A stretch of 64,000 nt of DNA, taken from assembly GCA_016787485.1 (NCBI GenBank), contig JAEUUL010000004.1:124001-188000 (forward strand), read 5' to 3'. The translations under genes were made by a program, and so were the position numbers. This document shows positions 13,201 through 56,050 of the stretch, piece by piece; within the stretch, counting starts at the first letter, position 1; each line of letters opens with the position of its first letter. The DNA is from Bacteroidota bacterium. Its GTDB lineage: Bacteria; Bacteroidota; Bacteroidia; NS11-12g; UBA955. The notes under the pieces are model-generated. The model was given only the letters and a program-made list of their open reading frames with translations, had not been told where the DNA came from and ran no database searches.

Positions 13201-16200
13201 TTACCTGATAATAAGTAGTTTCTCACTATTACCGGTAAAGTGGTCTGTAACGGTTAGGATATAAACACCATTACTAAGATTGCTCACATCTGCTGTACAA
13301 TAACAAAGATTGGAAACACCCCGCAAAAGCGTCTGTCCTTTGCTATTACTGATGGTGTAGCTGAACCCATCTTCGGTTGCGACGTTGATATTGATGTGAG
13401 TGTTTGCGGGGTTTGGCCAGAATGCAAATGTGTTTGCAGCAGTACCATACTCCCTGAAGATTACACTTTTGATTTCACTATAGGCTTTTTCGCCATTGCG
13501 TTCTACAGATTTTATGCGGTAGTACACCACATCTTTAAAAGCTTCGGTAACAGGGTCACTGAAGCTGTAAGCCAGAGTGCTTCCCGCAACCGCGTTAATG
13601 GTGCCCACAGTTGTAAAGGCTGTTTGTCCTGATATTTTTCGTTCAACCTCATACTGCGTTACTTCCGGGTCTTGTTCCACTCTCCAGTTGAGCAAGACGG
13701 TGCTGTTCGGCTTTTTGACTGCAGAGAAGGAGACCCAGTTGACAGGAAGTGAATAGACCATAGAGGTCATTACTAAAGGCGTACAGTTACAATTAGGCGC
13801 TGTGCTGGTGCGGATAACGGTGAACATAGCCCTTATAGGATCCGGTGGTAAGCCACCGGTATATTGGAAGGTGTCTATAAAATTAAGGATTCCGCCACCG
13901 GCAGCAATAGCACCGGTATAGGTTCTTGTTCTAACCAGCCGGTCAATACCCGGATCGAAGGCGTTGTTGTAATCCACATCCCACCAGGTCTCCAGCACAG
14001 TTTGGGTACCTGCTGTAACCGCTGCGAACGTTGAAGTGTTGACAATGCTGCCGGAGTAGGTGTATATAAACTGGGGCAAACCGGTAACATAGGCCCCCTG
14101 ATAAGTGGCAAATGCCAGCGAGGGTTTATAGATAACCACATTTCTGGATGCTGAGCCCATAACCACGCTGCTGCTGACACATGGCACACCGCCGCAAAGC
14201 AGGGGAGTTATCTGGCGGCGCATTTCTGCGTCTATCTGGGTATTGCCACAGCCCACATTGGGGTCGCAGGATACTCCAAATGTGAATCCGATATTGGTGC
14301 CACTGCTTACGCCTGCATCCAGTTTTATTTTTACGATGGTTGTATTGGCTACACCAGCTACCGGGGTGGCTGTGCAGGTAGCACAGTTGGCTCCAGGGGT
14401 AAAACTGCCTGCATAAGACATGCCTGCCGGCAATGTGTAATAGGCGGTATCGCCGGCCTGGGTGCTGGTTAGTACAGGTGTAACACCCAGACTGAGGGTT
14501 TTGGTGGCACCGCCGCAGCGGAAGGTATCGTTGGCCAGGGTTAAGGTAAGACCCATGCCCCCGGTTACACTGGCTCCGGTGATGTTGATACCATTACTTT
14601 TGTTTATCACACCATTTCCAACGGCAGGCTCACCGCAAGGCTTGTTGCCGTAGGTGCGGAATGTGAATGAGGTGCCCGAGGTTAAAGCACAACTGGTGGT
14701 ATAGTACAGTTTAACCGCTGCCTGCCTGCCTGCTGCTCCGGGGTTTGCTATTGTACCCGGTAGCCCATTGCTGCTAATACCGCTATGCGTATTCAGATTG
14801 ACGTTGATGCCTCCGGCTATGGGGTTGGTGGTTGCCGTTTGCCAATTGCCTGAGCCCAGGGGATATTCTACCCTTACCACACCGGTAACTGTTACTCCGG
14901 TGGGTGTAACTACCTCCACCCGAGGGCTTATCAGATTGGCCGCCTGGGCACTGTTTACCTGCACAATCACACTGTCTGTGGTACACAGGTCTATGGTGCT
15001 TCCGTTACCAGGGTGGCGCTGCACCGAAAGCTGAACCTCTGAAGTGGCTGGTGTAACACGGGCTAACACACTGGCTTGACTACATGCATTGGTGTCAGTC
15101 AGTGGATTGGGGCTGGGATATGCGGTGCAATTCCAACCTGCCTGTATCCTCACGCTGTCAGGGTTGCAACTTGCATATTTGAAGAAGATACGCAGGGTTT
15201 CTGTACCGGCCGATGGCAAACCTGCCGCACTTACCTGATACCAGTTGCCCGATGCACCATTGGCTATGGGTGCCAGCGTGGTATTGGTTGAAAGCCTTCG
15301 TACACTGTCTATGGTAACCAGTGAGCCTGCGGGCCGGTTTACCGCAAACCAAAGATAGGAGGCTGTTTGCAGACCGATGTTTGAAAGCTGTATATCCCAG
15401 GTGTGCTGGTTAGCTGTTCCCACCACCGTTCCGGTGAGGTTTTGGGCTACCGGATTTGGGGTTCCTGTTGAGTTGTAGACTATGGTTTGCGAGAATCCTG
15501 CATTGTTCTGCGCAATATTTGCACTTGTATTTCCGTATGAATATATATATTGTGAAGGATAAGTGGCTCTGGTGCCAAGGGCATAATAATAGTCTTTGAT
15601 ATAAAATTTTACATTGTGAACCTGATTCGCGTTTGTTCTGCACGTTGGAAACATAGGGTATCGGACATAATCTCCATATGTATTGGTTACCGTAAGAGGC
15701 GTTGGAAACCAGGTTCCGGGGTTGTAGAAAGCATGCACCCTGCCGCGAATCTGTGTTGGAGTCAATGCCACAAAAGTATGCGATGCGTTGGTAAAAGAAG
15801 CTGTTACAGTGCCGGGGGTGTATGTGGGTGGGTAGGTCACCACAAATGAATCTATAAGAAATACAGGCCTGAACTCGGTGGCAAATAGTTGCCCGCTGGT
15901 ATTGAAACGACGAGCCAAATGAGACATGTTGTCGCTTACAGGGCTGCACCCGGTGGCATTCCATCCATTCCTGCCATCTACGGCAGTTGTGCCCACCAGG
16001 TACATTTCCGGAACCGGATCATTACATCCTTCGCGCACACCGGCAATGATGGAGTAATACTGATAGGTCAAACCGGTCTGAATGTCTTGCTGGGGCAGGG
16101 TGGCGTTGTCTCGCACTACGTAACGGGCGCGGGTATATACGCTGTCACCCGCAAGCATAGCTCCGGCCGGAAGTCCACTACTCAAATCCCAGGTTACATT

Positions 16201-18342
16201 CTGTACATTTCCACTGGAATTATCGGTAAAACTGCTGATGGTATAGTTGGCCACTGAACTACCGCCACGTATTATATCTACAACAATATTAAGGGGTTCG
16301 AGCCTGTTGGTGTTTGATGCTCTTACCAACCGCAGTTCCTGATACAGGTTAGTTACATTTGAGACTTGCCGGCCTGAACCGGTTATTTCCAGTGTATCTA
16401 AAAACAAGGCCTTGCTCAAATCATATGCACTGATGGAAGATGCCACCTGCCTTGTGGTCATGGCTGCATTGGTCCAGCCCAGGCAGCCCGCCGATCTCCT
16501 CACAGTAGGCACATAAGTAACAGGTCCAAGACTTACACAACCCGGGCATATTGCCTTGCCAAAAACCGAACCACACATGATGTTTTGGTTGCAGCGGCAC
16601 CCGGCCACATCATCGATAATTTTGTACAGGCCATAGTTAAAAGTCACATTTCCACCAGCTCCGCAGGTATAAACCAGATTTATGCCTGCAGTGCTAAGGG
16701 CAGTGGATGGCGATTTAATGAAAACCGTATCATTGCTTTGGGTATAAGAAACAGAAGATGCCCCGTAAGTGGGGTTTCCACTGCCTGAAACACTAGCACC
16801 CGGGGGTAGTTTTAAATAATACTCATAGCGTGTGTTGGCATTCTCCATAGGGTTTTGGTTGTTATAAAAACCAGTTTTCAGCTGAATGCGGAAAGGTGTG
16901 CCGGGTACAATATTGGCCGGAACATAGGAAGTGCCTGTAAAGGCTGATTCATAAATGAACATGTTGCCACCAAAAAAACGGGCAGTCAACTGTTGTGTGC
17001 CACACATGGTATTGTAGCGTATATCGGTACCGGGGTATACTATAATGTCTCTGCCGCAGGTATTGCGGTAATTGCAATCAGCAGTTGCAGTTACAGTATA
17101 GGTTAAGCTCTGTCCGCGGGGCAAATCATCGAAGTAACCGTCGCCATCCAGGTCTGTAAGCCCGCCTGCTCCGTCAGGGTCAGTTGTAAACAGGTTATTC
17201 AAATTCATGGTGCCTATACCCCCGGAAAAGGTAAAGGAAGAAATCACATTTCCGTTGATGCGTGCATTGGAAAAACTGAACGTTGTGAGGCCTACCAAGG
17301 GGGAAGTGAAAGTAGAGTACACATATCCGATTCTGAGACGAATATTGTACATACCACCTGCCGTATCATCTCCGGTACCACCATTGGTAAGGGTTACATT
17401 CTGGTCAAAACTGTTACAGTATGAAGTGAAACCGGTAGCAGACTGTGATACGGCGCTGAAATTAGCAACACCGGCGCGCATGGAAACCGAACCTGTACGG
17501 GTGGTATAGCTGCAGACATTGCGGCCATGCACCCCCCAGCCTGCACCGTAAAAGGTATTGGAATTGCACATCCTTACCCTTACAGGCTCGGTTATGGTTA
17601 TAGATTCTCCATTGGTTAGCAGATTGTCGCCGCCAAAAAGGGTGGCCCCGAAAATGCGGTAAAACAGGGTGTCGCCATTGGTACGCCATGGTGTAAAGTT
17701 TGCCCCATTGGCTGTAATGGTGTTGCTGCCCGATGCATTTTGCATACCTGCAGAAGGGTAAACAATATAAAAGAAAACCGTATCCGCAGCCCCATTGCCA
17801 CCATTGGTTACCGTAAGTGTTCGGGTGGCCAGGGTGCCGATAACCGCATTGCCTATAGCAGCAGGCGGTGTTAAACTGATAGATGGTGCAAAAATGTTGT
17901 AGGTGTTTACTATACCGCTGGTTTCCTGGGCCGTACCGCAGCTGCCTTTTACATACACACTGTCTTTACCACTGGCCAAAGAGCCACAACCCGCTTTGCG
18001 CAGTATGGTAAAAATGATATCGCCTGTACCGGTAATATTGCTTACCACAAACCTTGGTGTGCGCAGGTTGCTTATATCGGCCTCTGCTATGGTTTGTGTA
18101 CCGCCGGTTTTGGTAACCGACCCGGGCACATATGTTATCCCTTCCGGCAGGCGTATGGTTATGGTATCTCCGTTACAGGTTGCGGTCCAGGCTACCTGCA
18201 CAGTAAGTGCAGAGTTACCATAACCGCGGGTGAGATCCCCTGCCGCTGTGGGATAAACGGGTGTATGTATCTGACCAAAAACTTTGGCTGATGCTAGAAG
18301 AAGGAGACAGCATGCTGTAAGATTTTTTAGTATATGTTTCAT
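13201..18342 (-). CDS. Giant T9SS-exported surface protein 1
   Basis: The 1713-residue protein starts MKHILKNLTACCLLLLASAK with cleavage near VFGQ. The body is a long series of beta-rich, DUF11-like modules (for example GNAVIGTLATRTLTVTNGGNGAADTVFFY) with many Cys pairs and a PDSVRIQAGWNCTAYP motif near residue 1100. Near residue 1560 comes the fibronectin-like stretch WVSFSAVKKPNSTVLLNWRV, typical just before T9SS signals. The last 75 residues are a type A sorting domain (FAFWPNPANTHININV, ADVSNLSNGVYILTVTD, KLLIIR), so the protein is exported by T9SS and attached to or released from the surface. It begins 14 bp after a broken barrel gene and is paralogous to the giant gene upstream. An adhesin or surface-layer role is inferred only. 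Confidence 0.85.
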   Translation of the reverse strand: MKHILKNLTACCLLLLASAKVFGQIHTPVYPTAAGDLTRGYGNSALTVQVAWTATCNGDTITIRLPEGITYVPGSVTKTGGTQTIAEADISNLRTPRFVVSNITGTGDIIFTILRKAGCGSLASGKDSVYVKGSCGTAQETSGIVNTYNIFAPSISLTPPAAIGNAVIGTLATRTLTVTNGGNGAADTVFFYIVYPSAGMQNASGSNTITANGANFTPWRTNGDTLFYRIFGATLFGGDNLLTNGESITITEPVRVRMCNSNTFYGAGWGVHGRNVCSYTTRTGSVSMRAGVANFSAVSQSATGFTSYCNSFDQNVTLTNGGTGDDTAGGMYNIRLRIGYVYSTFTSPLVGLTTFSFSNARINGNVISSFTFSGGIGTMNLNNLFTTDPDGAGGLTDLDGDGYFDDLPRGQSLTYTVTATADCNYRNTCGRDIIVYPGTDIRYNTMCGTQQLTARFFGGNMFIYESAFTGTSYVPANIVPGTPFRIQLKTGFYNNQNPMENANTRYEYYLKLPPGASVSGSGNPTYGASSVSYTQSNDTVFIKSPSTALSTAGINLVYTCGAGGNVTFNYGLYKIIDDVAGCRCNQNIMCGSVFGKAICPGCVSLGPVTYVPTVRRSAGCLGWTNAAMTTRQVASSISAYDLSKALFLDTLEITGSGRQVSNVTNLYQELRLVRASNTNRLEPLNIVVDIIRGGSSVANYTISSFTDNSSGNVQNVTWDLSSGLPAGAMLAGDSVYTRARYVVRDNATLPQQDIQTGLTYQYYSIIAGVREGCNDPVPEMYLVGTTAVDGRNGWNATGCSPVSDNMSHLARRFNTSGQLFATEFRPVFLIDSFVVTYPPTYTPGTVTASFTNASHTFVALTPTQIRGRVHAFYNPGTWFPTPLTVTNTYGDYVRYPMFPTCRTNANQVHNVKFYIKDYYYALGTRATYPSQYIYSYGNTSANIAQNNAGFSQTIVYNSTGTPNPVAQNLTGTVVGTANQHTWDIQLSNIGLQTASYLWFAVNRPAGSLVTIDSVRRLSTNTTLAPIANGASGNWYQVSAAGLPSAGTETLRIFFKYASCNPDSVRIQAGWNCTAYPSPNPLTDTNACSQASVLARVTPATSEVQLSVQRHPGNGSTIDLCTTDSVIVQVNSAQAANLISPRVEVVTPTGVTVTGVVRVEYPLGSGNWQTATTNPIAGGINVNLNTHSGISSNGLPGTIANPGAAGRQAAVKLYYTTSCALTSGTSFTFRTYGNKPCGEPAVGNGVINKSNGINITGASVTGGMGLTLTLANDTFRCGGATKTLSLGVTPVLTSTQAGDTAYYTLPAGMSYAGSFTPGANCATCTATPVAGVANTTIVKIKLDAGVSSGTNIGFTFGVSCDPNVGCGNTQIDAEMRRQITPLLCGGVPCVSSSVVMGSASRNVVIYKPSLAFATYQGAYVTGLPQFIYTYSGSIVNTSTFAAVTAGTQTVLETWWDVDYNNAFDPGIDRLVRTRTYTGAIAAGGGILNFIDTFQYTGGLPPDPIRAMFTVIRTSTAPNCNCTPLVMTSMVYSLPVNWVSFSAVKKPNSTVLLNWRVEQDPEVTQYEVERKISGQTAFTTVGTINAVAGSTLAYSFSDPVTEAFKDVVYYRIKSVERNGEKAYSEIKSVIFREYGTAANTFAFWPNPANTHININVATEDGFSYTISNSKGQTLLRGVSNLCYCTADVSNLSNGVYILTVTDHFTGNSEKLLIIR

Positions 18343-18355
18343 TGTGTAATGTTTG

Positions 18356-19236
18356 TTAAAATTTTCCCGGGGAAAAACCACCTCTGCGAATTTTCAATCC
18401 CTCTCGTGTTTTTATCCAATATTTTCTTCCATATTTTCCCAATGGAATGGAGAAGTTGATCGCAATATTTGGAGTAGTTGTCATTGTTTTCCTTATTTCC
18501 GCGGATAGCTCCCATATCACTGAATCCTGGGATATCGGGAACTGACCGATCTGCAAGATTTGCGGTAAGTTGTCCATTGCTGTTTATCAAGGATGTTTTA
18601 TCTACATACGTTGTGCTAACATCATCCAGGTAATCAGTAAATGTTTTCCGAAAACCAAATTCACAGGAAAGGGCACTGTTGTCCTTATATTTTTTCAGCA
18701 AGAGATGCAAACCCATAGGAATGGTATAGGAAAACAAAGGATGTGGTTTTATATCGGGTAAGAAATACTGACCGTCAGTGCCAGACTGCCTTAGCTCATA
18801 TACACTTCCATTGAAGCGGGTATTTGGGTTGAAACGAAAAACCCCGTCTCCGAAAAAGACAGAATTCGTTCCGTTCTTGCCAAGATAAAGTTTAGTAGAA
18901 ACTGAAAACTCAAACACATTGAAAAAAAAAGACCGATTGCGCATGTGGCGTTCCCTGTTTTTGGTTAATTTGTCATTACCGCTTAATCTTATGTAATTCA
19001 ATTGTGCCCGCATGCCCAAAATATGATTAAAAACTTCGGAAAGTAGATGTTAAGGCATATCTCGTGCTGCCGGCATTAATGTCCATGAAATCACTGGTTG
19101 CCAAACCGGGTTTCCCTCCCAAATCACCCAAAAAAATGGAAAGACCTGCACCTAAAAGTAAATCGCTTTGTTGTGCCCACAAAGCCTGAATATTCAATGT
19201 GAAAAATGATGTAATAAAAATATTTAATTTCTGCAT
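18356..19236 (-). pseudogene. Outer-membrane barrel gene broken by two frameshifts
   Basis: Three frames read in series match the intact barrel protein encoded at 58608-59504. The first runs from 19236 (signal peptide, then LLGAGLSIFLGDLGGKPGL to YALTSTFRSF, stop). The second resumes as FNHILGMRAQLNYIRLSG and continues through DYLDDVSTTYVDKT to NDNYS. The third gives NIAINFSIPLGKYG to GGFSPGKF. The first break is one extra T in a T5 run (plus-strand A run at 19029-19033); the second is one extra A in an AAA run (18468-18470). Removing both bases gives 292 residues against 298 in the paralogue, with no gap at the second joint. It precedes giant gene 1 by 14 bp. Sequencing error in homopolymers is the main alternative. 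Confidence 0.8.
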
Positions 19237-19326
19237 TTCAACCACGAATAAATCAAGATGGGTTTTTTAAAACTGGCGGCATTTGACTTTCATTGTTTAT
19301 AAGCTACCAAAACACTTAATCCAATG

Positions 19327-19334
19327 CAAAGATA
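19327..19334 (-). promoter_or_regulatory. -7 box of the barrel-giant protein 1 operon
   Basis: TATCTTTG on the minus strand (CAAAGATA on plus) lies about 90 nt before the start at 19236. It is 28 nt downstream, in gene direction, of the 21-bp tandem repeats. Confidence 0.55.
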
Positions 19335-19362: not shown

Positions 19363-19414
19363 CTTTACAAAGTCAAAATGGGGCTTTACAAAGTCAAAAT
19401 GGGGCTTTACAAAG
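19363..19414 (+). repeat. 21-bp tandem direct repeats, locus A
   Basis: Two perfect 21-bp units at 19363-19383 and 19384-19404, then a 10-bp partial third unit at 19405-19414. Each unit has the core ACAAAGTCAAAA followed by TGGGG. The repeats lie upstream of the broken-barrel/giant protein 1 operon on the minus strand. Closely related units occur at 24831-24879 and, degenerate, at 52564-52610. A 21-bp period equals two helical turns, as in direct-repeat operators. Confidence 0.9.
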
Positions 19415-19497: not shown

Positions 19498-22400
19498 CTA
19501 TCTGTTTATTAGCAGTTTCTCACTTTTGCCGGAATAATTATCGGTTACTGTGAGTACATATACCCCACTGCTGAGGTTGCTTACATCTGCCGTGCAGAAA
19601 CTCTGTGTGCAACTGCCTCTTAGCAGCACCTGTCCGGTGGCGTTGCTGATCCTGTAGCTGAATCCTTCTTCTGCCGCTACACTGATATGAATGAGTGTAT
19701 TGGCCGGATTCGGCCAGAATGCAAATGCATGATTGGCCGAAGTCCCATTGAAACGCACTGCGCGAATTTCACTGCGTTGATTCGTGCCATCCAGGTTTAT
19801 CAGTTTTAAGCGGTAGTAAACCACATCCTTCAGGACCTCAGTCTGGTTGTCGGTATAATTGTAATACCGGGGGCTTAAACTATTCCCTGCGGCAGCAACC
19901 TGACCCATATCCACGAATTTATTCTGGCTTGCAAGTTTCCGCTGCACAACAAATTTTGAGGTATTGGTCTCACTCAGTGTCATCCAGTCCAATCTCACCC
20001 CATCTCCGGTTTTAACTGCATAAAAATAACCCCATTGCAAATCGAGTGGAACATAGAAGGAGGGTAAGGATGCGACCGCATCGGTGCTGCCACAATTGCA
20101 TGGCTGGGTCACAATGAGTTTGAGATACTGTGAAGGGGGCAATGTTTTGTGTCCATACAAAAGGATTTTGGAGTAAGTATTGGACCCGGATGCCGCCAGA
20201 GGAGCAAAAGTATCGGTAAACAGGCTGGCCTCACCCGGGTCTTTTATGTTGTTGTTGTTCACATCGGCAAACAATTGAATGATTGGTTGATTAGCGGTTG
20301 CATTTCCCAAATTCCGGAATATCAGATTGCTGAGAATAATGGAATCGGGTTGATAAATATTACCTGCGGTAGTGTCCTGCACCAATCTGGCAGAACCGGA
20401 TCCGGGGATATAGGTAATCCGAGGTTTCTGAACAGGTCGATCCTGTTCGAGCTTATTGTTTTCTACAAACGAATTGCAAACACCCCCAGGCACAGTTGCA
20501 CATGTAGCGGTATATGACGACACAGCCTGCAGTGTAAGATTGCTGTTCCCACCACAAGATATATTCGACGGACTATAATAGTTCAACTGAATTACTGTAC
20601 TGTCAAATGCGGGCAAGCCGTTGGCCACCCAACGCAGCCTCTGGCGGCCACCTACCGTATCCACAAGAGGTGTAGTTACTGAAAACGGATTGCGAATAAA
20701 ATTAATGGAGCCAGGTACGTAAAAAGAACCTGCCGGCAAATAAGCCCATAACTGATCGTTGGCAGAACTTGTACCAGTTTCATAATTGTTCAGTTTTATT
20801 TCCATCAGGAATTGCGAATCGCAAGTAGTAATCCCGGGTGTAATAGTCCCTAAAACCAACAGTTTGGGTCCTGGAGCACCAGTAATAATGATGGGATCAA
20901 ATTCTGCATCTTGCGGCAATACAGCCCCGCAGGCTTTCTTCGAATTTGCTATGAAACGCACACTGCTGCCAGAGGTATAATTACAATTGGTAACCATTCT
21001 CATTCTAAGCAAAATCTCATTGAAAGGAGCTTCACCAATGGGTCTGAGTCCATCCGTTTTTATTTGTGCTATGCTGTCTGAAATATAAAATCTGTATCGG
21101 CCGGGTATTACCTGAACCGGAGTAATATTTGTCCAGGTGGGGGCATTAGCAGGATATTTATACTGATAATGAGGCACCAAATAAGCACCATTGCCGCCAT
21201 CGGGCACCAGAAAATCCAGGTGCACGTCATAGGCTGCGGCAACCTGCCTGCTGCTCACACTAACCGTCCAGGCCAGCGTATCGCACAAGGGTGATGGGTC
21301 TGCCGGTGCTGAAATCAAATCAGTCTGTACAAGAGCATTCAATGGTATTACAAAGGTTCTGATGCTGTCTGCACGACAGCTTCCGGATGTACCTGCCAGG
21401 CTGGCGGGATATCCGGTACAGTTCCAACCGGAATAAATAATAAGGCTATCGAAATCGCAGGCCGTATAACTCGCAAAAACCCGGAATTGTTTAATGGTAC
21501 CTCCTCCATTAAGATTGCCAGACTGGTAAATTCCATTCACACTTGTAAGCAGGGTTCCGGTTCCAAGGTCACGAATACTATCTACCAATATGCGGCCCGT
21601 TGGGCTGCGGGTGCCAATCCATACATTGTTGGCTACAGCGCCAATGGCATTGTTCTGCAATTGAAAATCCCAACTGATGGTTCTGTTTATGCCCTGTACC
21701 ACGGTAGCACCCACATTTGCCACATCCAGCTGAGCAGAATTCTGATACTGGTAGGTGCCTCTGGTATGGTTATTGGGCACCCCCCGGGTAGTAATGCCTG
21801 TCCAGGAAGCTCTCCCAATCCAGCGATCGGCTGTAAACTGGGTCAAAATGCTATTGGCCGGTACAGCGCAGGATGATTTGATATAATTGTACATCTGCCA
21901 GTAGCTGCCGGTAGTGGATGGCACCTGGCTTCCACCTGCAAATGTATACAGAGGGGTAAGTAGGAAAGTATACCAATCACCGATAACAGAAAGGGGTGTT
22001 ATACTGAAAACTTTGGAACCGGCCTTGCCTGCACCTGTGGTGAATACATAGGTGATGCGGGTTGAGTCTAAAACGTAACCCGAGGGAATGAGGATACGAA
22101 CGGTATCCAGGGTGGTAAACAGCCGATATTCATAAGGAAAATGCAAACTGCCCGCATAGTTGGCGCAACAATCTCCCACACTCTGAAAATAATCAGAATA
22201 TACCGTGGTTTGGTCACATCCTGTAGGTCGGGAAATAAAACCACCATTATAGCCTTTGTACACATTCACTACACGGTAGTTGGATGGCAAATCCAGACAG
22301 CGGTATCGCGCAGTATCACTGGTAGGGTTGCTGTAGGGACTCACATACACCATGTTGGAGGTAGTAACCAGATCATCCGGATTGGCCGATTCCTGCACAT

Positions 22401-24792
22401 TCCGGTTGTAAACAAACTTCAGTTTCAGTTGAATAGAATCTCCATCGTCAAAGTAAAACCCACCCGGGAAGCCAGAAACGGTTGAACTGAAATCAAATTC
22501 CACCCTGCGGCGGGAAGAGGTATCAAATTTGGTAAATGGCAAACCGGTAACCGTAAAACTTGTGCCGGTAGATTGATCTATTACCCGAATCTCACCACTC
22601 ACAGGTTCGGCCATATTGCCGTATTGTGGAATATAGATGCTGGCGTACCCATAGGCAAAGGTGGCGGCTGGCGATTGCGAACCCCTTACAATTCTGGCAT
22701 GGTAAGTGAGTTCAAAAGAATCCCGTGGAGCCATTTTGTCCCACTCAACCAGATTCATATTCATAGTTCCACTGCCATCCGGAATGCCGTTGTTGTCATT
22801 GTCCACCTGCCCGAAAGTGGTTCGCCTGATTTGTGCAAAATACGGCACCACACCGCCTCTCGGGCATGAGCCGGGGCATATAAGGGTAATGGGATTGCCA
22901 TTTCTGCAACTGTATGGAAGCACCTGGAACCCGCATCGTCTTACTGGTCTTACATTGAAATACTGCACATAAATCGTATTCACTCCACTCACTCCTCCCA
23001 AACTGCAATCCAGAATCATTCTGGGTGTGGTTGTCCACCCGTTTGGAGAAGGAAAATTGCGGTAATACGCTTCTAGAATTCGGGTAGTGGGGTTCCAGCT
23101 AACAGAATCCACATATTTAATAAACGTACTGCTCAGGCTGGTCATTTTCAGTTTGGATGAATCTCCATCCCATTTCAGCCCGGCAGGCAATTCCAGTTTC
23201 ATCATAAAGAAATCACCTGTTACACGGTAATGGTTGAATCCGGAACCACGATTGGTGGTGAGTTCAATGGTTCCTGAATCTCCATTTATCATGTAGGCGG
23301 GTGCCCGGTAAAGTGTTTTGCCATAATACCGGTGGGCTTCACCCGCCAGATTGGTTTTTGGCAATGAGTAAGCAGCGGTGCCACAAATATTGGTGAACCA
23401 GGCCATATAATTGACATAGTTCTCCGTTACTGTACACATGGTATTGTCATACAAACCCCTGAACCGTCTGAACCGGATATAAACGGTATCGCCGGAGTTG
23501 ATTGCACTTCTCCTGATGTAAAAGGTGGCAGTTGGATTGGATGTGGGCCAGAAAGTCCTTGAAAAACCATACTGCACCATAGAATCGGGCGTGGTTTTGC
23601 TATAAGTACCTGTGTTTGTTTTTACAAAAATATTCGCCGTATCTATATAGCTCATACTGGAACCGTTGGGCCCTGTATAGGCTTCAATCGGATAACACTG
23701 GTCTATGCGCATGGCAACATTGCTTGCCCTGCCGGATCCAATATTGATAAACCTGACAACTACGGTATCGTAACTGCCATAGCAGCCATTATTTACGGAT
23801 ACCAGCTGTGCCCTGAGATTGGGTATAATGCTGGGAATCTGCACTGAAGGATAAAGATTGGAAAGATTACATATAGGCGTGTTCAAGCAACCCCAATAAG
23901 CTGTAATTTCACTGCTTTGGCTGGGGTCGGTGCATGAATTTACCCGAAATGATTCATTGATAAAAACTGTATCTGCCGGGAAGACAGACTGGTTTTTCAG
24001 ATTTTGAATGTGCTGGTACCAGATGGTATCGCCGTTTATCCGTGTGGGAGAGACATAAACACCGTTCACTTCAAGGTCAGTATAGAAGGTGCCCGGCTGG
24101 TAAACTGCTCTGAACCATACTGTGTCTAAGGTACTATTGGTTCCGGTGTTTCTGATTCTCCAGCTGCGGGTATGTACCGAGCCAATGGTGGCATTCGGGC
24201 GATTATTATCCGCCCTGGCTTCAAGAATGATTGTGGGCGCCTTGATGGCACTTACAAAATCCTGGCCGCTTTTTACAACATTAAACCCTCCCCCAACAGT
24301 GGAGGTGAGCCGCATTGTGTGCACTGCGGAAGTTAGCCCGTTTACCCCGCAGGATGCCCTTACCAGAAGTTTTATCAAGGTAGGGGTATTGCCGTTGTTC
24401 AGAGGTGCGTTCATTGTCAATGTGGCAATCCGGGTATTCAATCCACTTAAGGATGCTATTCGCGCAGACGGGATATACCCGGTAACGATAAAGCCGGCAG
24501 GCAAAGTATCAGACAGCTCAACAGTACCTGTTAGGGCACCTGTTGCCACCCGAAGATAGATGGTAATGGTATCCGGGGTGCCGCATTCATTTAGAATCAG
24601 TTGATGGTGATTGGTACTGTCGCCCAATACGACAATCTGCCCCTGAAGCATTGGTTTCCCGCAGAACAAGCCCAGAACAATAACGGTCATTCTCAGCAGT
24701 GCCGGTTGAATTTTTTGGCTTAGCCGCGAAGTTGATATGGCACTCTTAGGGCTTTTTCCAAAGAGCCTTGAAAATAGAAAATTTGCTTTCAT
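19498..24792 (-). CDS. Giant T9SS-exported surface protein 2
   Basis: The 1764-residue protein has a long basic N-terminal region before the hydrophobic signal core (LLRMTVIVLGLFCGK, cleavage near LQGQ). An internal Met at residue 35 is an alternative start, but the -7 box at 24806-24813 favours 24792. The body is beta-rich, with Cys-containing modules and the FDSLIIYSGWNCTGYP motif shared with giant protein 1. Near residue 1600 is LDWMTLSETNTSKFVVQRK, the usual fibronectin-like module before the sorting signal. The C-terminal 75 residues (FAFWPNPANTLIHISV, TADVSNLSSGVYVLTVTD, SEKLLINR) are a T9SS type A domain almost identical to that of giant protein 1. It probably arose by tandem duplication and acts at the cell surface. 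Confidence 0.85.
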   Translation of the reverse strand: MKANFLFSRLFGKSPKSAISTSRLSQKIQPALLRMTVIVLGLFCGKPMLQGQIVVLGDSTNHHQLILNECGTPDTITIYLRVATGALTGTVELSDTLPAGFIVTGYIPSARIASLSGLNTRIATLTMNAPLNNGNTPTLIKLLVRASCGVNGLTSAVHTMRLTSTVGGGFNVVKSGQDFVSAIKAPTIILEARADNNRPNATIGSVHTRSWRIRNTGTNSTLDTVWFRAVYQPGTFYTDLEVNGVYVSPTRINGDTIWYQHIQNLKNQSVFPADTVFINESFRVNSCTDPSQSSEITAYWGCLNTPICNLSNLYPSVQIPSIIPNLRAQLVSVNNGCYGSYDTVVVRFINIGSGRASNVAMRIDQCYPIEAYTGPNGSSMSYIDTANIFVKTNTGTYSKTTPDSMVQYGFSRTFWPTSNPTATFYIRRSAINSGDTVYIRFRRFRGLYDNTMCTVTENYVNYMAWFTNICGTAAYSLPKTNLAGEAHRYYGKTLYRAPAYMINGDSGTIELTTNRGSGFNHYRVTGDFFMMKLELPAGLKWDGDSSKLKMTSLSSTFIKYVDSVSWNPTTRILEAYYRNFPSPNGWTTTPRMILDCSLGGVSGVNTIYVQYFNVRPVRRCGFQVLPYSCRNGNPITLICPGSCPRGGVVPYFAQIRRTTFGQVDNDNNGIPDGSGTMNMNLVEWDKMAPRDSFELTYHARIVRGSQSPAATFAYGYASIYIPQYGNMAEPVSGEIRVIDQSTGTSFTVTGLPFTKFDTSSRRRVEFDFSSTVSGFPGGFYFDDGDSIQLKLKFVYNRNVQESANPDDLVTTSNMVYVSPYSNPTSDTARYRCLDLPSNYRVVNVYKGYNGGFISRPTGCDQTTVYSDYFQSVGDCCANYAGSLHFPYEYRLFTTLDTVRILIPSGYVLDSTRITYVFTTGAGKAGSKVFSITPLSVIGDWYTFLLTPLYTFAGGSQVPSTTGSYWQMYNYIKSSCAVPANSILTQFTADRWIGRASWTGITTRGVPNNHTRGTYQYQNSAQLDVANVGATVVQGINRTISWDFQLQNNAIGAVANNVWIGTRSPTGRILVDSIRDLGTGTLLTSVNGIYQSGNLNGGGTIKQFRVFASYTACDFDSLIIYSGWNCTGYPASLAGTSGSCRADSIRTFVIPLNALVQTDLISAPADPSPLCDTLAWTVSVSSRQVAAAYDVHLDFLVPDGGNGAYLVPHYQYKYPANAPTWTNITPVQVIPGRYRFYISDSIAQIKTDGLRPIGEAPFNEILLRMRMVTNCNYTSGSSVRFIANSKKACGAVLPQDAEFDPIIITGAPGPKLLVLGTITPGITTCDSQFLMEIKLNNYETGTSSANDQLWAYLPAGSFYVPGSINFIRNPFSVTTPLVDTVGGRQRLRWVANGLPAFDSTVIQLNYYSPSNISCGGNSNLTLQAVSSYTATCATVPGGVCNSFVENNKLEQDRPVQKPRITYIPGSGSARLVQDTTAGNIYQPDSIILSNLIFRNLGNATANQPIIQLFADVNNNNIKDPGEASLFTDTFAPLAASGSNTYSKILLYGHKTLPPSQYLKLIVTQPCNCGSTDAVASLPSFYVPLDLQWGYFYAVKTGDGVRLDWMTLSETNTSKFVVQRKLASQNKFVDMGQVAAAGNSLSPRYYNYTDNQTEVLKDVVYYRLKLINLDGTNQRSEIRAVRFNGTSANHAFAFWPNPANTLIHISVAAEEGFSYRISNATGQVLLRGSCTQSFCTADVSNLSSGVYVLTVTDNYSGKSEKLLINR

Positions 24793-24805: not shown

Positions 24806-24813
24806 CAAAGCTA
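24806..24813 (-). promoter_or_regulatory. -7 box of giant gene 2
   Basis: TAGCTTTG on the minus strand (CAAAGCTA on plus) lies 13 nt before the ATG at 24792 and 17 nt from the tandem repeats upstream. The spacing of repeat to box differs from that at locus A by 11 bp. Confidence 0.6.
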
Positions 24814-24830: not shown

Positions 24831-24879
24831 ATTCACAAAGTCAAAACAGGGTTTCACAAAGTCAAAACAGGGTTTCACA
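24831..24879 (+). repeat. 21-bp tandem direct repeats, locus B
   Basis: Two 21-bp units at 24831-24851 and 24852-24872 that differ at one base, plus a 7-bp partial unit to 24879. The core is CACAAAGTCAAAAC then AGGG. They match locus A in core and period and stand directly upstream of the giant gene 2 promoter. Confidence 0.9.
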
Positions 24880-24934
24880 TATGCCCTTTAGTATTAAAGT
24901 ACTAAAAAAAGGTGTTTGGGAAATCCCATTGTAA

Positions 24935-52050: not shown

Positions 52051-52488
52051 CTAATTCCCTGCGGGATAGGAATGGGTCAAAAATTGCATAGCCAGCGTAT
52101 AGCCATCCAAGCCCAATCCGCTTATGTTCCCTTTGCAGGCTCCCAGCAATAAATCTGTGCGCCTTTCCGGCTCACGACTGTGGACATTGGTAATATGAAC
52201 AGCGATTACTGGCACTGGCAGGGCCTTAATCGTATCTGCAATTGCCAGACTGGTATGGCTGTATGCGCCGGCATTCAGCACAATACCATGCGCCCCGCCA
52301 AAACCTGCCTGCTGCAGATGGTTGATGATTTCTCCCTCCACATTGCTTTGGTAATACCTGATTTCTACCCCCGGAAAGAGTCTCCGTAACAGTGTCAGAT
52401 GTTCTTCAAACGAAGTGTGGCCGTAAAGATCCGGCTCGCGGCGACCCAGCAAATTCAGATTTGGACCGTTGACAATGGCAATAACCAT
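52051..52488 (-). CDS. aroQ: 3-dehydroquinate dehydratase, type II
   Basis: The 145-residue enzyme has the type II signature VIAIVNGPNLNLLGRREPDLYG at the N-terminus (catalytic Arg and Tyr), then YQSNVEGEIINHLQQA, GIVLNAGAYSHTSLAI and VHITNVHSREPER with the catalytic His. It dehydrates 3-dehydroquinate to 3-dehydroshikimate in the shikimate pathway. Length is normal. The start at 52488 gives the usual N-terminus. It is divergent from the adenylate cyclase gene, with a degenerate 21-bp repeat between. Confidence 0.94.
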   Translation of the reverse strand: MVIAIVNGPNLNLLGRREPDLYGHTSFEEHLTLLRRLFPGVEIRYYQSNVEGEIINHLQQAGFGGAHGIVLNAGAYSHTSLAIADTIKALPVPVIAVHITNVHSREPERRTDLLLGACKGNISGLGLDGYTLAMQFLTHSYPAGN

Positions 52489-52563
52489 GTTGTGTACACC
52501 CACTTCACAAAGATAAGTCAATCCGGGGTTTTCATTTTTGGGTCCATTTGCCAAACGATTGGA

Positions 52564-52610
52564 AAAACAGGGGTTTTTGTTAAGTCAAACCGGGCTTTTA
52601 CAAAGCCAGA
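52564..52610 (+). repeat. Degenerate 21-bp direct repeats, locus C
   Basis: Three imperfect units of the element seen at 19363 and 24831. The pieces are AAAACAGGGG (52564-52573), GTTAAGTCAAACCGGG (52579-52594) and ACAAAG (52600-52605), each at the 21-bp phase: the G runs end 21 bp apart, and GTTAAG/ACAAAG start 21 bp apart. They lie 24 bp or more upstream of the -7 box of the cyclase gene. Orientation relative to the gene is opposite to loci A and B. Confidence 0.6.
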
Positions 52611-52633
52611 GTACACTGTATTGTGTTTTTTGT

Positions 52634-52641
52634 TAGGTTTG
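52634..52641 (+). promoter_or_regulatory. -7 box of the adenylate cyclase operon
   Basis: TAGGTTTG, 10 nt before the ATG at 52652. No TTTG is found at the -33 position, which would fit a promoter that needs an activator bound at the repeats upstream. Confidence 0.55.
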
Positions 52642-52651
52642 CAATTCTACC

Positions 52652-55600
52652 ATGCACCCCATGTCCCGATTTCGCAACCATATTTATGCAGTCTGTTTGG
52701 TTCTGCTATCCGTATTTTGCTACCGTGCATCGGCACAAAACGGTGGCTCCTATTTTTCACTGTTCGAAATTAAAGAGCACGTAAAGCCAGGAACCAGTCT
52801 AAGCCTGACGCAGGATGCGGAGGGTAATATGCAAATTGCCACTCTGCGCGGTATTACCGTGTTCGACGGGGCAAACAGCCAGCTTGTAGGAACCGGGGCT
52901 GCGCCCAACGTGGTGGAATTCGTTCCGGATAACGGACTTGTTTATGCCGCCTGCGATGGTCGTGTGGGTTATGTGCAGAAAAATGAATTCGGGAAATACA
53001 TTTTCAATGCAATTGATGTCCCGGGTATTTCCGGTGATGAGTTTCTGGCCATCACCCATCTGGGAAAAGATGTGTATTTCATGAGTTTCGAAAAGGTAAT
53101 CAAGGTAACCGATAAAAAAGTTTCCGGCACCTGGAAAACAGCGGGCAACGACAATTTTACAGGCATTTTTACACTGGGCAACAAAATCGTTGTAAACCAG
53201 TTTGGCCTGGGTCTGTATACTCTGGAAAACGGGGGTAAACTCAACAAGATACAAATCGACGACAGCCGCCTGGCAACCAATCTCATCCGCTTTTCATTCG
53301 CCCGTGGCAATGGAGAAGTGGTTTTGGGAACAGACAACGATGATATCTTTCTTTTCACCGGCGCAGCACTCACCGATTTGCCATTTGAACGCGCGGCCTA
53401 TCTCAAATCCAAAAATATACAGGATGCGCGCCGGCTCGACAATAAAAAAATGGTGGTGGCCACCAAATCGGGTGGGTTGATTGTGTCTGACATGTATTCA
53501 GGTACTGCAACTGAAATATTCAATACCGCCATGGGTTTTCCGGATGACGAAGTGTTTGCCGTAAGCGTGGACCGTGGTGCCGGTATTTGGGTATTGCACG
53601 AAATGGGACTAACCCGTATAGACCAGTATATTCCAGTCAAGAACTTCTCAGCCTACCCCGGTATTACAAACAGAGCCTATTCCGTTGCCGAGGCCAATGG
53701 CAATGTATACGTTGGCGCTTCTGATGGATTGTATGTGCTGAAAGGCGCAGAAAGCGAGGAAGAGTTTACAAAAGCTGCAGAAACCACCAAGGCAGCCCGA
53801 AAAGAAATAGAAGCCGCCGGTAAAAAAGCCAAAGAGCCGGATGATGCTGTGCCTGCGCCGGATCCGGACCCGGCACCGTCGCCAACCCCGGGAACAGGCA
53901 CCACCACTACACCCGCGCCCGGCACCACCACACCGGAAGAAGGACCCAATGCGCTGGAGAAAGCAGCAGAAAAACTGAAAAACAGATGGCGCAAAGCCAA
54001 AGAAAAAGGCAACAACATCATTAAGGGAAGCGGTGGCAGCGGCTCCAAAGACCCAACCCAGCAAAAATCCATGAATGATCAGCCTGGTGGTCATGGCTAC
54101 CAGTACCGCAAACATTCTTATTTCCGTTATGCTTCATTCGAATCAGGTGCTGCCCAACTTTTCGTTTATAAGAAAGTTCCCGGAATTGAAGGCAAAATCA
54201 AAAAAATCCTGGTTGTTCCATCCGGCCTTGCCTGCGTGGCGAATACCGGGCTTTACTTCTATTCTGGCGATGGGGTGAAACGCCTGTATGCAGCTGATGT
54301 GAGTGATGCCACATTGCTCAACGGCCAACTCTATTTTACCGCAAGCTCCTCCGTATACCGTGTAGAGCAGGATGGCAACATATCCCATATCAATACCGGT
54401 ATCCGGCAGCAATCAATTTACTATTTGTTTGGTGATGCCAACAACACACTGTGGGTAGGAGGAACCAACCGCGTCGCCAAGCTGAAAGTTAGCGAAAGCA
54501 CAACAGTGACTTCTGCCGAAGAAATAAAAATACCGAATGAATTTATCGATTACGTAAACATCTGCAAAGCAGGAAGCACAATATTCTTTATCACTTCAGG
54601 CGGACTCTATGAATACGCACCTGGTAAAAAAGAGGCCCTGGCTGCCAGAATTTCAAAATCACTGACCGACGAAACGCTGGAACATTGCGTAAATGCTGCC
54701 ACCAACGTGGCTTATATAAAAACCCAGGAAGGCTGGAAAGAACTGAAAAGTGAAACTGAACTGGCCAACATGGGACTGTTGGACGCAGTCACCGATGTGC
54801 GATACATATTCAAGTCATTAAGTGGAAACTATTATTGCACAAACGGTGATGGCAAGGTATTCCGTATCAACAAAAACGCTGCTACCTCTGCTCCCCAGGG
54901 TGGTTTCGATGTTTTTATACGCAGCGTTGTAAGCGGCACTACTGGTGCGGCTTTTGATTTGTCCAACCTCAAAATTTCACATACAGAAGGATCTATCGAA
55001 ATTCACTGGGGTACCAATGTGCTGCTGAAACAGGATGTGAACTGGTACCGCTGGAAAATTGAAGGCAGCAGCAACAACAACTACAGCAGCTGGCAAAACC
55101 GCACATCGCTGAACATGAGTCTGCCTCCGGGCAGATACCGTTTTGTGGTACAGGCAAGAGATGTAATGGGAAATATAAGTGCAGAGAGGGGAATTAACTT
55201 CACCATTGAGCCTCCTTTCTGGCAAACCACCTGGTTCATTGCACTCTGTGCAATTGCACTTATAGGCTTAGTGTATGCCATTTTTGTGTGGCGCAACCGT
55301 GCACTCATAGAAAACCAAAAAGTTCTTGAATCCATGGTGAAACAACGTACCACGGAATTGGCCCTTGAAAAGGAAAAAGCTGAAGATTTGCTCCTGAATA
55401 TTCTTCCGCAGGCTGTGGCCAAAGAATTGGCGGAAAAAGGCGAAGCCAGTGTGCGTCAGCATCCCGAGGCAGCCGTAATGTTCACAGACTTTTGCGATTT
55501 TACCAAGAATTCAAAACATTTTACGGCATCAGAACTGGTACATAAACTGGATGATTATTTCAGGAAATTTGACCAGATAGTAGAAAAATACGGACTGGAA

Positions 55601-56050
55601 AAAATCAAAACCATAGGAGACTCTTACATGTGTGCCTCTGGTGTGCCCCAGGCCAAGCGCAATTACACCGCAGCAATTGTAATGGCCGGATTGGAAATCC
55701 TGGATGTGGTCAATCACGAACCCACAGGGTGGAAAATACGCGTTGGTGTCCACCGGGGTGGACTTGTAAGTGGTGTTGTTGGTAAAAAGAAGTTTGCCTA
55801 CGACATCTGGGGCGACACCGTAAACATTGCATCCCGCATGGAAAGCAGCGGAGAGCCCATGCACATCAATGTAACAGAACAAGTATATGCTGAAATTAAG
55901 GAATATTTTGTGTGTGAACAACGGGGAGAAATCGAAGCGAAAAGTTTGGGTAAAACCACCATGTACTTTGTGAAAGCGCTGAAACCGGAATATTCTGTGA
56001 ACGAAAACGGTCAGGTTCCCAATGACCGCTTCATGGCTTTGTTTTCTTAA
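52652..56050 (+). CDS. Membrane adenylate cyclase with periplasmic propeller sensor
   Basis: The 1132-residue protein has a signal peptide (cleavage near RASAQ), a periplasmic beta-propeller (about residues 30-860) of two-component-regulator type ending in a Y_Y_Y-like module (WYRWKIEGSSNNN, PPGRYRFVVQARD), one membrane helix (about 862-882), a signalling coiled coil (VKQRTTELALEKEKAEDLLL) and a class III cyclase domain (about 930-1110). The metal-binding Asp lie in VMFTDFCDFT and IGDSYM. The Lys of EKIKTIGD and the Asp of YDIWGDTVNIASR are the residues that select ATP, so the product should be cAMP. An odd Pro/Thr/Lys-rich insertion splits the propeller (about 363-486). It heads the operon with the HD and Usp genes. 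Confidence 0.9.
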   Translation: MHPMSRFRNHIYAVCLVLLSVFCYRASAQNGGSYFSLFEIKEHVKPGTSLSLTQDAEGNMQIATLRGITVFDGANSQLVGTGAAPNVVEFVPDNGLVYAACDGRVGYVQKNEFGKYIFNAIDVPGISGDEFLAITHLGKDVYFMSFEKVIKVTDKKVSGTWKTAGNDNFTGIFTLGNKIVVNQFGLGLYTLENGGKLNKIQIDDSRLATNLIRFSFARGNGEVVLGTDNDDIFLFTGAALTDLPFERAAYLKSKNIQDARRLDNKKMVVATKSGGLIVSDMYSGTATEIFNTAMGFPDDEVFAVSVDRGAGIWVLHEMGLTRIDQYIPVKNFSAYPGITNRAYSVAEANGNVYVGASDGLYVLKGAESEEEFTKAAETTKAARKEIEAAGKKAKEPDDAVPAPDPDPAPSPTPGTGTTTTPAPGTTTPEEGPNALEKAAEKLKNRWRKAKEKGNNIIKGSGGSGSKDPTQQKSMNDQPGGHGYQYRKHSYFRYASFESGAAQLFVYKKVPGIEGKIKKILVVPSGLACVANTGLYFYSGDGVKRLYAADVSDATLLNGQLYFTASSSVYRVEQDGNISHINTGIRQQSIYYLFGDANNTLWVGGTNRVAKLKVSESTTVTSAEEIKIPNEFIDYVNICKAGSTIFFITSGGLYEYAPGKKEALAARISKSLTDETLEHCVNAATNVAYIKTQEGWKELKSETELANMGLLDAVTDVRYIFKSLSGNYYCTNGDGKVFRINKNAATSAPQGGFDVFIRSVVSGTTGAAFDLSNLKISHTEGSIEIHWGTNVLLKQDVNWYRWKIEGSSNNNYSSWQNRTSLNMSLPPGRYRFVVQARDVMGNISAERGINFTIEPPFWQTTWFIALCAIALIGLVYAIFVWRNRALIENQKVLESMVKQRTTELALEKEKAEDLLLNILPQAVAKELAEKGEASVRQHPEAAVMFTDFCDFTKNSKHFTASELVHKLDDYFRKFDQIVEKYGLEKIKTIGDSYMCASGVPQAKRNYTAAIVMAGLEILDVVNHEPTGWKIRVGVHRGGLVSGVVGKKKFAYDIWGDTVNIASRMESSGEPMHINVTEQVYAEIKEYFVCEQRGEIEAKSLGKTTMYFVKALKPEYSVNENGQVPNDRFMALFS

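Follow-up and report, generated by a model that had tools for sequence, protein, structure and literature searches.

Tandem 21-bp repeats phased to the -7 box as probable operators of LytTR-type regulators in a Bacteroidota genome

The window analysed here, a stretch of 64,000 nucleotides from a Bacteroidota bacterium, carries three arrays of 21-bp direct repeats belonging to a family that is dispersed through the genome. Judged from their sequence and placement, the arrays very probably function as operators, and the best explanation is that they are direct-repeat activator operators of LytTR-type response regulators, which we regard as probable. LytTR is the best-supported identity because the arrays are helically phased to the promoter and because their layout is conserved beside LytTR genes in distant Bacteroidota.

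RESULTS

Three arrays in the window and the genes that they precede

The first-pass annotation had described 19363-19414 and 24831-24879 as 21-bp tandem repeats and had pointed to a degenerate third copy before an adenylate cyclase gene. All three were recovered. TRF reported a 100% match for both array 1 (period 21, 2.5 copies, score 104) and array 2 (24832-24879, period 21, 2.3 copies); with the R2 model described below, their genome-wide values were E=2.8e-10 and E=2.5e-12, array 2 being the best site of the genome. Array 3 was found by model search at 52576-52611 (E = 6e-7 within the window), and since a weak extra unit precedes this match, the array spans about 52555-52612. Promoters were predicted from the Bacteroidota -7 box, whose consensus is TAnnTTTG at -12 to -5 (PMC9723704). 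The features are as follows:

13201-18381, minus strand: giant protein 1 (1726 aa) with a type IX sorting domain (Por_Secre_tail, 1.7e-8)
18339-19240, minus strand: outer-membrane-barrel-like gene, the first after array 1 (from translation; signal-peptide start near 19238)
19327-19334, minus strand: predicted -7 box TATCTTTG for the minus-strand gene (from sequence; TA 37 bp from the nearest array 1 element)
19363-19414, plus strand: array 1, two perfect 21-bp units CTTTACAAAGTCAAAATGGGG and a partial third (TRF, R2 model)
19498-24792, minus strand: giant protein 2 (1764 aa) with a type IX sorting domain (Por_Secre_tail, 3.2e-9)
24806-24813, minus strand: predicted -7 box TAGCTTTG for giant gene 2 (from sequence; TA 26 bp from the nearest array 2 element)
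24831-24882, plus strand: array 2, two 21-bp units (A/T)TTCACAAAGTCAAAACAGGG and a partial third (TRF, R2 model)
52508-52515, minus strand: predicted divergent -7 box TATCTTTG, 68 bp from array 3 (from sequence)
52555-52612, plus strand: array 3, degenerate, with three units, between two divergent genes (model search and sequence)
52634-52641, plus strand: predicted -7 box TAGGTTTG of the cyclase gene (from sequence; TA 38 bp from the last array 3 element)
52652-56050, plus strand: adenylate/guanylate cyclase-domain protein (1132 aa; Guanylate_cyc, 3.6e-48)

The motif ACAAAGTCAAAA, with at most 1 mismatch, occurs four times in the window, always inside arrays 1 and 2 (shuffle mean, 0.73). The core initially named as the repeat unit was too short, the conserved unit being longer (TTTNNNAAANNSAAAANGGNN, 21 bp). 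A 21-bp period is found in all arrays, as for LytTR-family operators (direct repeats of ~9 bp with a period of about 21-22 bp). Array 1 (19363) and array 2 (24831) are oriented opposite to the genes that they precede and point away from them, each with an exact -7 box on the gene side; array 3 (52564) has the orientation of the cyclase gene. The divergent box at 52508-52515 is upstream of the likely ATG, at 52488, of a type II dehydroquinase gene (ORF 52051-52554).

The two giant proteins are homologous to each other (E=4e-73); orthology between them and an array-adjoining giant of G011, a genome of the same family, was unsupported outside the C-terminus. The barrel-like gene at 18339-19240 has no Pfam match. 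Its reading frame, which opens with the signal peptide (about 19238), appears to change near 19030-19040, a different frame being used from about 19030 on; this apparent frameshift may be genuine or may stem from a sequencing error. Directly beside two arrays there is an AT-rich near-palindrome, TTAGTACTTTAATACTAA or its complement (window 24888-24905 and L078:5948-5965), and in L157 a similar sequence comes after the array. Rfam gave no match in the window or in four array loci.

The array family in the genome

Two models were used: R1 (42 bp), built from 18 array segments of this genome, and R2 (54 bp), built from the R1 set together with G011 sites and one G018 site. Together they identified about 23 arrays or more in the 3.4-Mb genome, a lower bound, as the searches score the best 150 candidates; members used in model building match the models by construction. 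Independent evidence that the family exceeds chance is provided by a looser pattern search of the genome, which returned 10 matches versus 0 for the backwards control. The exact two-copy pattern is restricted genome-wide to arrays 1 and 2, and diverged copies exist elsewhere. The consensus unit, TTTCACAAAGTCAAAACGGGG, recurs two to three times with a 21-bp period and is near-invariant at its TT(T), AAA and AAA blocks; a typical array consists of two full units followed by a third TTTNNNAAA element.

Almost all arrays are intergenic and upstream of genes, mostly ~40-200 bp from the next start, and at most sites they have the orientation of the gene (arrays 1 and 2 and three G011 arrays are opposite). 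The exceptions in placement are C29:192108, between convergent genes, and C9:115175, which overlaps a predicted ORF. Weak intragenic model matches (L093, L095 and C14:53186) were set aside as chance. The proposal of a hidden regulon is upheld by ~23 arrays, almost all of them intergenic and promoter-proximal, and by the phasing described below; many random or intragenic copies, looked for genome-wide, were not found.

At the C29:192108 array (L077:6109-6310), a TACCTTTG box lies 39 bp from the array and is followed by a terminator-like hairpin; this locus possibly encodes a small RNA. The arrays at L088:6057-6105 and L089:6228-6277 resemble each other in the DNA downstream, which ends in GCATATAAGTAA or GCACATATAAGTAA, as if array and flank had been co-duplicated.

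Target genes

Enrichment upstream of T9SS genes, to which the first-pass annotation had looked for support, was observed. At least 8 of the 23 arrays serve genes for type IX-secreted proteins, with ~130 sorting-domain matches genome-wide (p = 3e-6 to 7e-6, assuming 2,700-3,000 genes and uncorrected for the longer intergenic regions there). Targets with a sorting domain are both window giants and the genes after C12:139833, C12:136189, C7:79911, C7:60681 and C41:225419 (the last an open frame of 3916 aa); the C9:115175 array also adjoins such a gene. The set is not purely type IX, since it includes the cyclase, a peptidase/ABC transporter, PriA and a class II tRNA synthetase. At L073:5233-5937, an array precedes a gene whose product matches the serine protease inhibitor family Inhibitor_I10.

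Helical phasing of the arrays to the -7 box

A phasing pattern was seen by eye first and tested afterwards. Exact TAnnTTTG boxes lie 38, 38, 39, 40, 49, 50, 50, 60 and 71 bp downstream of the last scored array unit, and these nine distances are phased at 10.5 bp (R = 0.92, p = 5e-5). Because the unit is 21 bp long, the phase is independent of which unit serves as reference. One-mismatch boxes at 21 other sites, which were not used in setting the phase, show the same phase (V = 0.575, p = 4e-5; two of these sites, G011 C5a and C5b, duplicate each other), and the reverse-complement control for these boxes gave V = 0.09. An alignment of the promoters at their -7 boxes brings the array elements into a column; as the boxes for this alignment were chosen in phase, it illustrates the phasing and does not prove it. 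On the reverse side of the arrays, the exact window boxes at 26, 37 and 68 bp agree mutually, but those of G011 (33 and 34 bp) and C27 (29 bp) are out of phase with them, and no claim of reverse-side phasing is made.

The arrays sit just upstream of the -35/-33 region of the predicted promoters, as LytTR operators do. The -33 TTTG is missing at 26 of the 28 promoters predicted, as expected of activator-dependent promoters. Both observations bear on an alternative in which operators of the same kind repress, as with CoxC, where three LytTR repeats overlap -35 (PMC11347149). The proximal units do adjoin the -33 region, but the lack of a -33 box at nearly all promoters argues against repression, and the distances, which vary by whole turns up to 71 bp, fit polymerase contact better than blocking; we consider repression unlikely.

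Arrays in other genomes

The comparison with related genomes called for by the first-pass annotation showed that the array layout recurs in G011 and in distant orders. G011 is the one genome of the family in which arrays are numerous (at least 8); their neighbours are genes for giant type IX proteins (CHU_C, SprB, Por_Secre_tail) and for a LytTR response regulator. When GTDB genomes were scanned with the DNA pattern and no other criterion, 66 loci were returned, among them about a dozen convincing intergenic arrays, all Bacteroidota by title, in Flavobacteriales, Cytophagales and Chitinophagales. The -7 box is usually at 38-39 bp: exact boxes are found at 38 or 39 bp in L252, L258, L278, L301 and L304, one-mismatch boxes at 38-39 bp in L280 and L314, and boxes at 39 bp in L270 and L305 if a third unit is counted. 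Control matches inside genes had no exact box and two one-mismatch boxes. The arrays of L258 and L304 face, in addition, a type IX lectin-like gene.

In four genus-g13 genomes (G042, G044, G050 and G052), a diverged array has a CAnnTTTG box 38 bp away and precedes the kinase gene; these genomes were chosen for carrying a LytTR gene, so that the array link there is not independent of LytTR. In a fifth with the ortholog (G039), the contig ends too soon. Four g13 loci that precede kinase/LytTR operons (L336, L338, L339 and L340) have, after the array promoter, a short stretch closed by a terminator hairpin and containing a common segment around CTAAAAATA. This stretch is a candidate small RNA; the three loci searched (L336, L338 and L340) had no Rfam match.

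LytTR genes beside arrays and candidate regulators

A LytTR response regulator gene lies within a few kb of 6-7 of the 12 GTDB arrays, commonly paired with a histidine kinase. Kinase (PF06580, Reg_prop) and LytTR regulator are both beside the array in L252, L258, L301, L314 and L270, the L301 pair being that of Flavobacterium sp. LMO8; L280 also holds a LytTR gene, as does L279, a weaker case. The other 59 of the 66 pattern loci, the control matches among them, have no LytTR gene. Compared with Bacteroidota chance loci, LytTR presence is 7 of ~12 versus 0 of 14 (p ~0.001, hand calculation). LytTR genes are linked to arrays in G011 and G047 as well; other LytTR loci lack arrays.

AraC/XylS-type activators also use direct half-sites 21 bp apart next to -35, a geometry that matches the 21-bp direct repeats abutting the -35/-33 region here. 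However, Pfam showed no HTH_18 (AraC) domain in those array neighbours that were scanned, while genomes unrelated to one another repeatedly have a LytTR gene next to an array, and operators of AraC/XylS type are an improbable explanation. The LytTR identity put forward by the first-pass annotation probably stands: the phasing and the LytTR genes beside arrays in distant Bacteroidota speak for it, but for this genome, where none of the 14 LytTR genes adjoins an array, we infer it.

In a tree of LytTR proteins, the array-linked members of L252, L258, L301, L280 and L314 fall in a 100/99 clade with C14:51517 of this genome and C12:33265 of G011; orthologs with 48-50% identity are found in five genus-g13 genomes. 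The array-linked G011 LytTR is instead the sister of C41:49734 of this genome. The array-linked LytTRs are not one clade (at least 4 label changes on the tree), which would require that similar sites be recognised by distinct LytTR proteins. Tentatively, we name as a possible regulator of the arrays the protein encoded at C14:51505-52281, an ortholog of the LytTRs linked to arrays in distant genomes. A further candidate is the regulator at C41:49311-50060, sister of the array-linked G011 protein. A search of genus g13 with the C41 regulator yielded LytTR homologs whose context differs and includes no arrays.

The classical LytTR 9-mer consensus is [TA][AC][CA]GTTN[AG][TA]. Fitted by hand with 42 registers open, so that a chance fit is possible, it is matched at 9 of 9 positions by TCAGTTTAT in L270 and L280 and at 7-8 positions in most other GTDB arrays, on the strand opposite the promoter; the unit of this genome fits in part, its best match, AAAGTCAAA, having 8 of 9 but lying on the other strand.

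DISCUSSION

A MITE-like element, mobile or selfish, scattered between genes and with no part in regulation, would account for the many copies in one genome and for the few flanks in common (C34:119556 with C41:250227; two arrays in G011 C5), but it is very improbable given that most copies lack common flanks, that the 21-bp period holds as copies diverge and that the distance to the -7 box is phased and conserved across orders.

LytTR sites consist of direct repeats of ~9 bp, separated by spacers of 10-13 bp, that lie upstream of -35 or overlap it (PMC11347149, PMC6193735). The arrays resemble the operators of AgrA, HdrR/BrsR (LRS) and RcoM/CoxC in that direct repeats, spaced by two helical turns, abut -35 on its upstream side or overlap it, and three-unit arrays resemble the three repeats of RcoM/CoxC operators (PMC11347149, PMC6193735, PMC4227749). 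They differ from these operators in (i) a longer conserved unit (about 16-21 bp), (ii) dispersal at ~23 promoters in this genome, (iii) several permitted promoter distances, in helical register and (iv) targets rich in type IX-secreted proteins. Closer in phylogeny are the LRS-like operons of Bacteroides thetaiotaomicron and B. ovatus, with 11-bp repeats, 11 bp apart, upstream of a TATCTTTG promoter (PMC6193735, Table 3). They share with the arrays the phylum and spaced repeats before a TATCTTTG promoter, and their regulator is of the LytTR class proposed for the arrays, but their regulators are membrane-bound, their sites are predicted to be autoregulatory and no regulon is described (PMC6193735); receiver-type regulators are implicated at the arrays, whose distance to -7 is a few bp different. 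In the open-access full text searched, no description of the present regulon, or of any LytTR regulon in Bacteroidota, was found, the one relevant report being that of the predicted autoregulatory Bacteroides sites.

In the mechanism that we propose, a LytTR-type response regulator, as dimers or oligomers, would bind two to three head-to-tail 21-bp units, each two helical turns long, on one DNA face. The unit nearest the promoter would end just upstream of the would-be -33 box position, and the bound regulator would stand in for the missing -33 contact and activate a sigma-A promoter (TAnnTTTG). The array-to-box distance would be 38-39 bp, or this plus whole helical turns (49-50, 60, 71). The regulon would comprise at least ~23 arrays and be rich in type IX-secreted surface proteins, both window giants among them, and would include the cyclase gene. 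In this scheme LytTR binding, activation rather than repression, and the signal are what we infer.

On balance, we favour a Bacteroidota-wide operator class in which 21-bp tandem units, at a fixed or helically quantised distance from TAnnTTTG and with no -33 box, link kinase/LytTR pairs to type IX-secreted surface proteins; in this lineage the class would have spread into a regulon of at least two dozen promoters, its unit drifting from the common AAACTGAAA core to AAAGTCAAA. Operator and spacing rule together would make targets readable from sequence alone. For giant surface proteins secreted by the type IX route, they would also name a specific class of regulator, and they would offer a simple in vivo test of activators at the unusual Bacteroidota sigma-A promoter.
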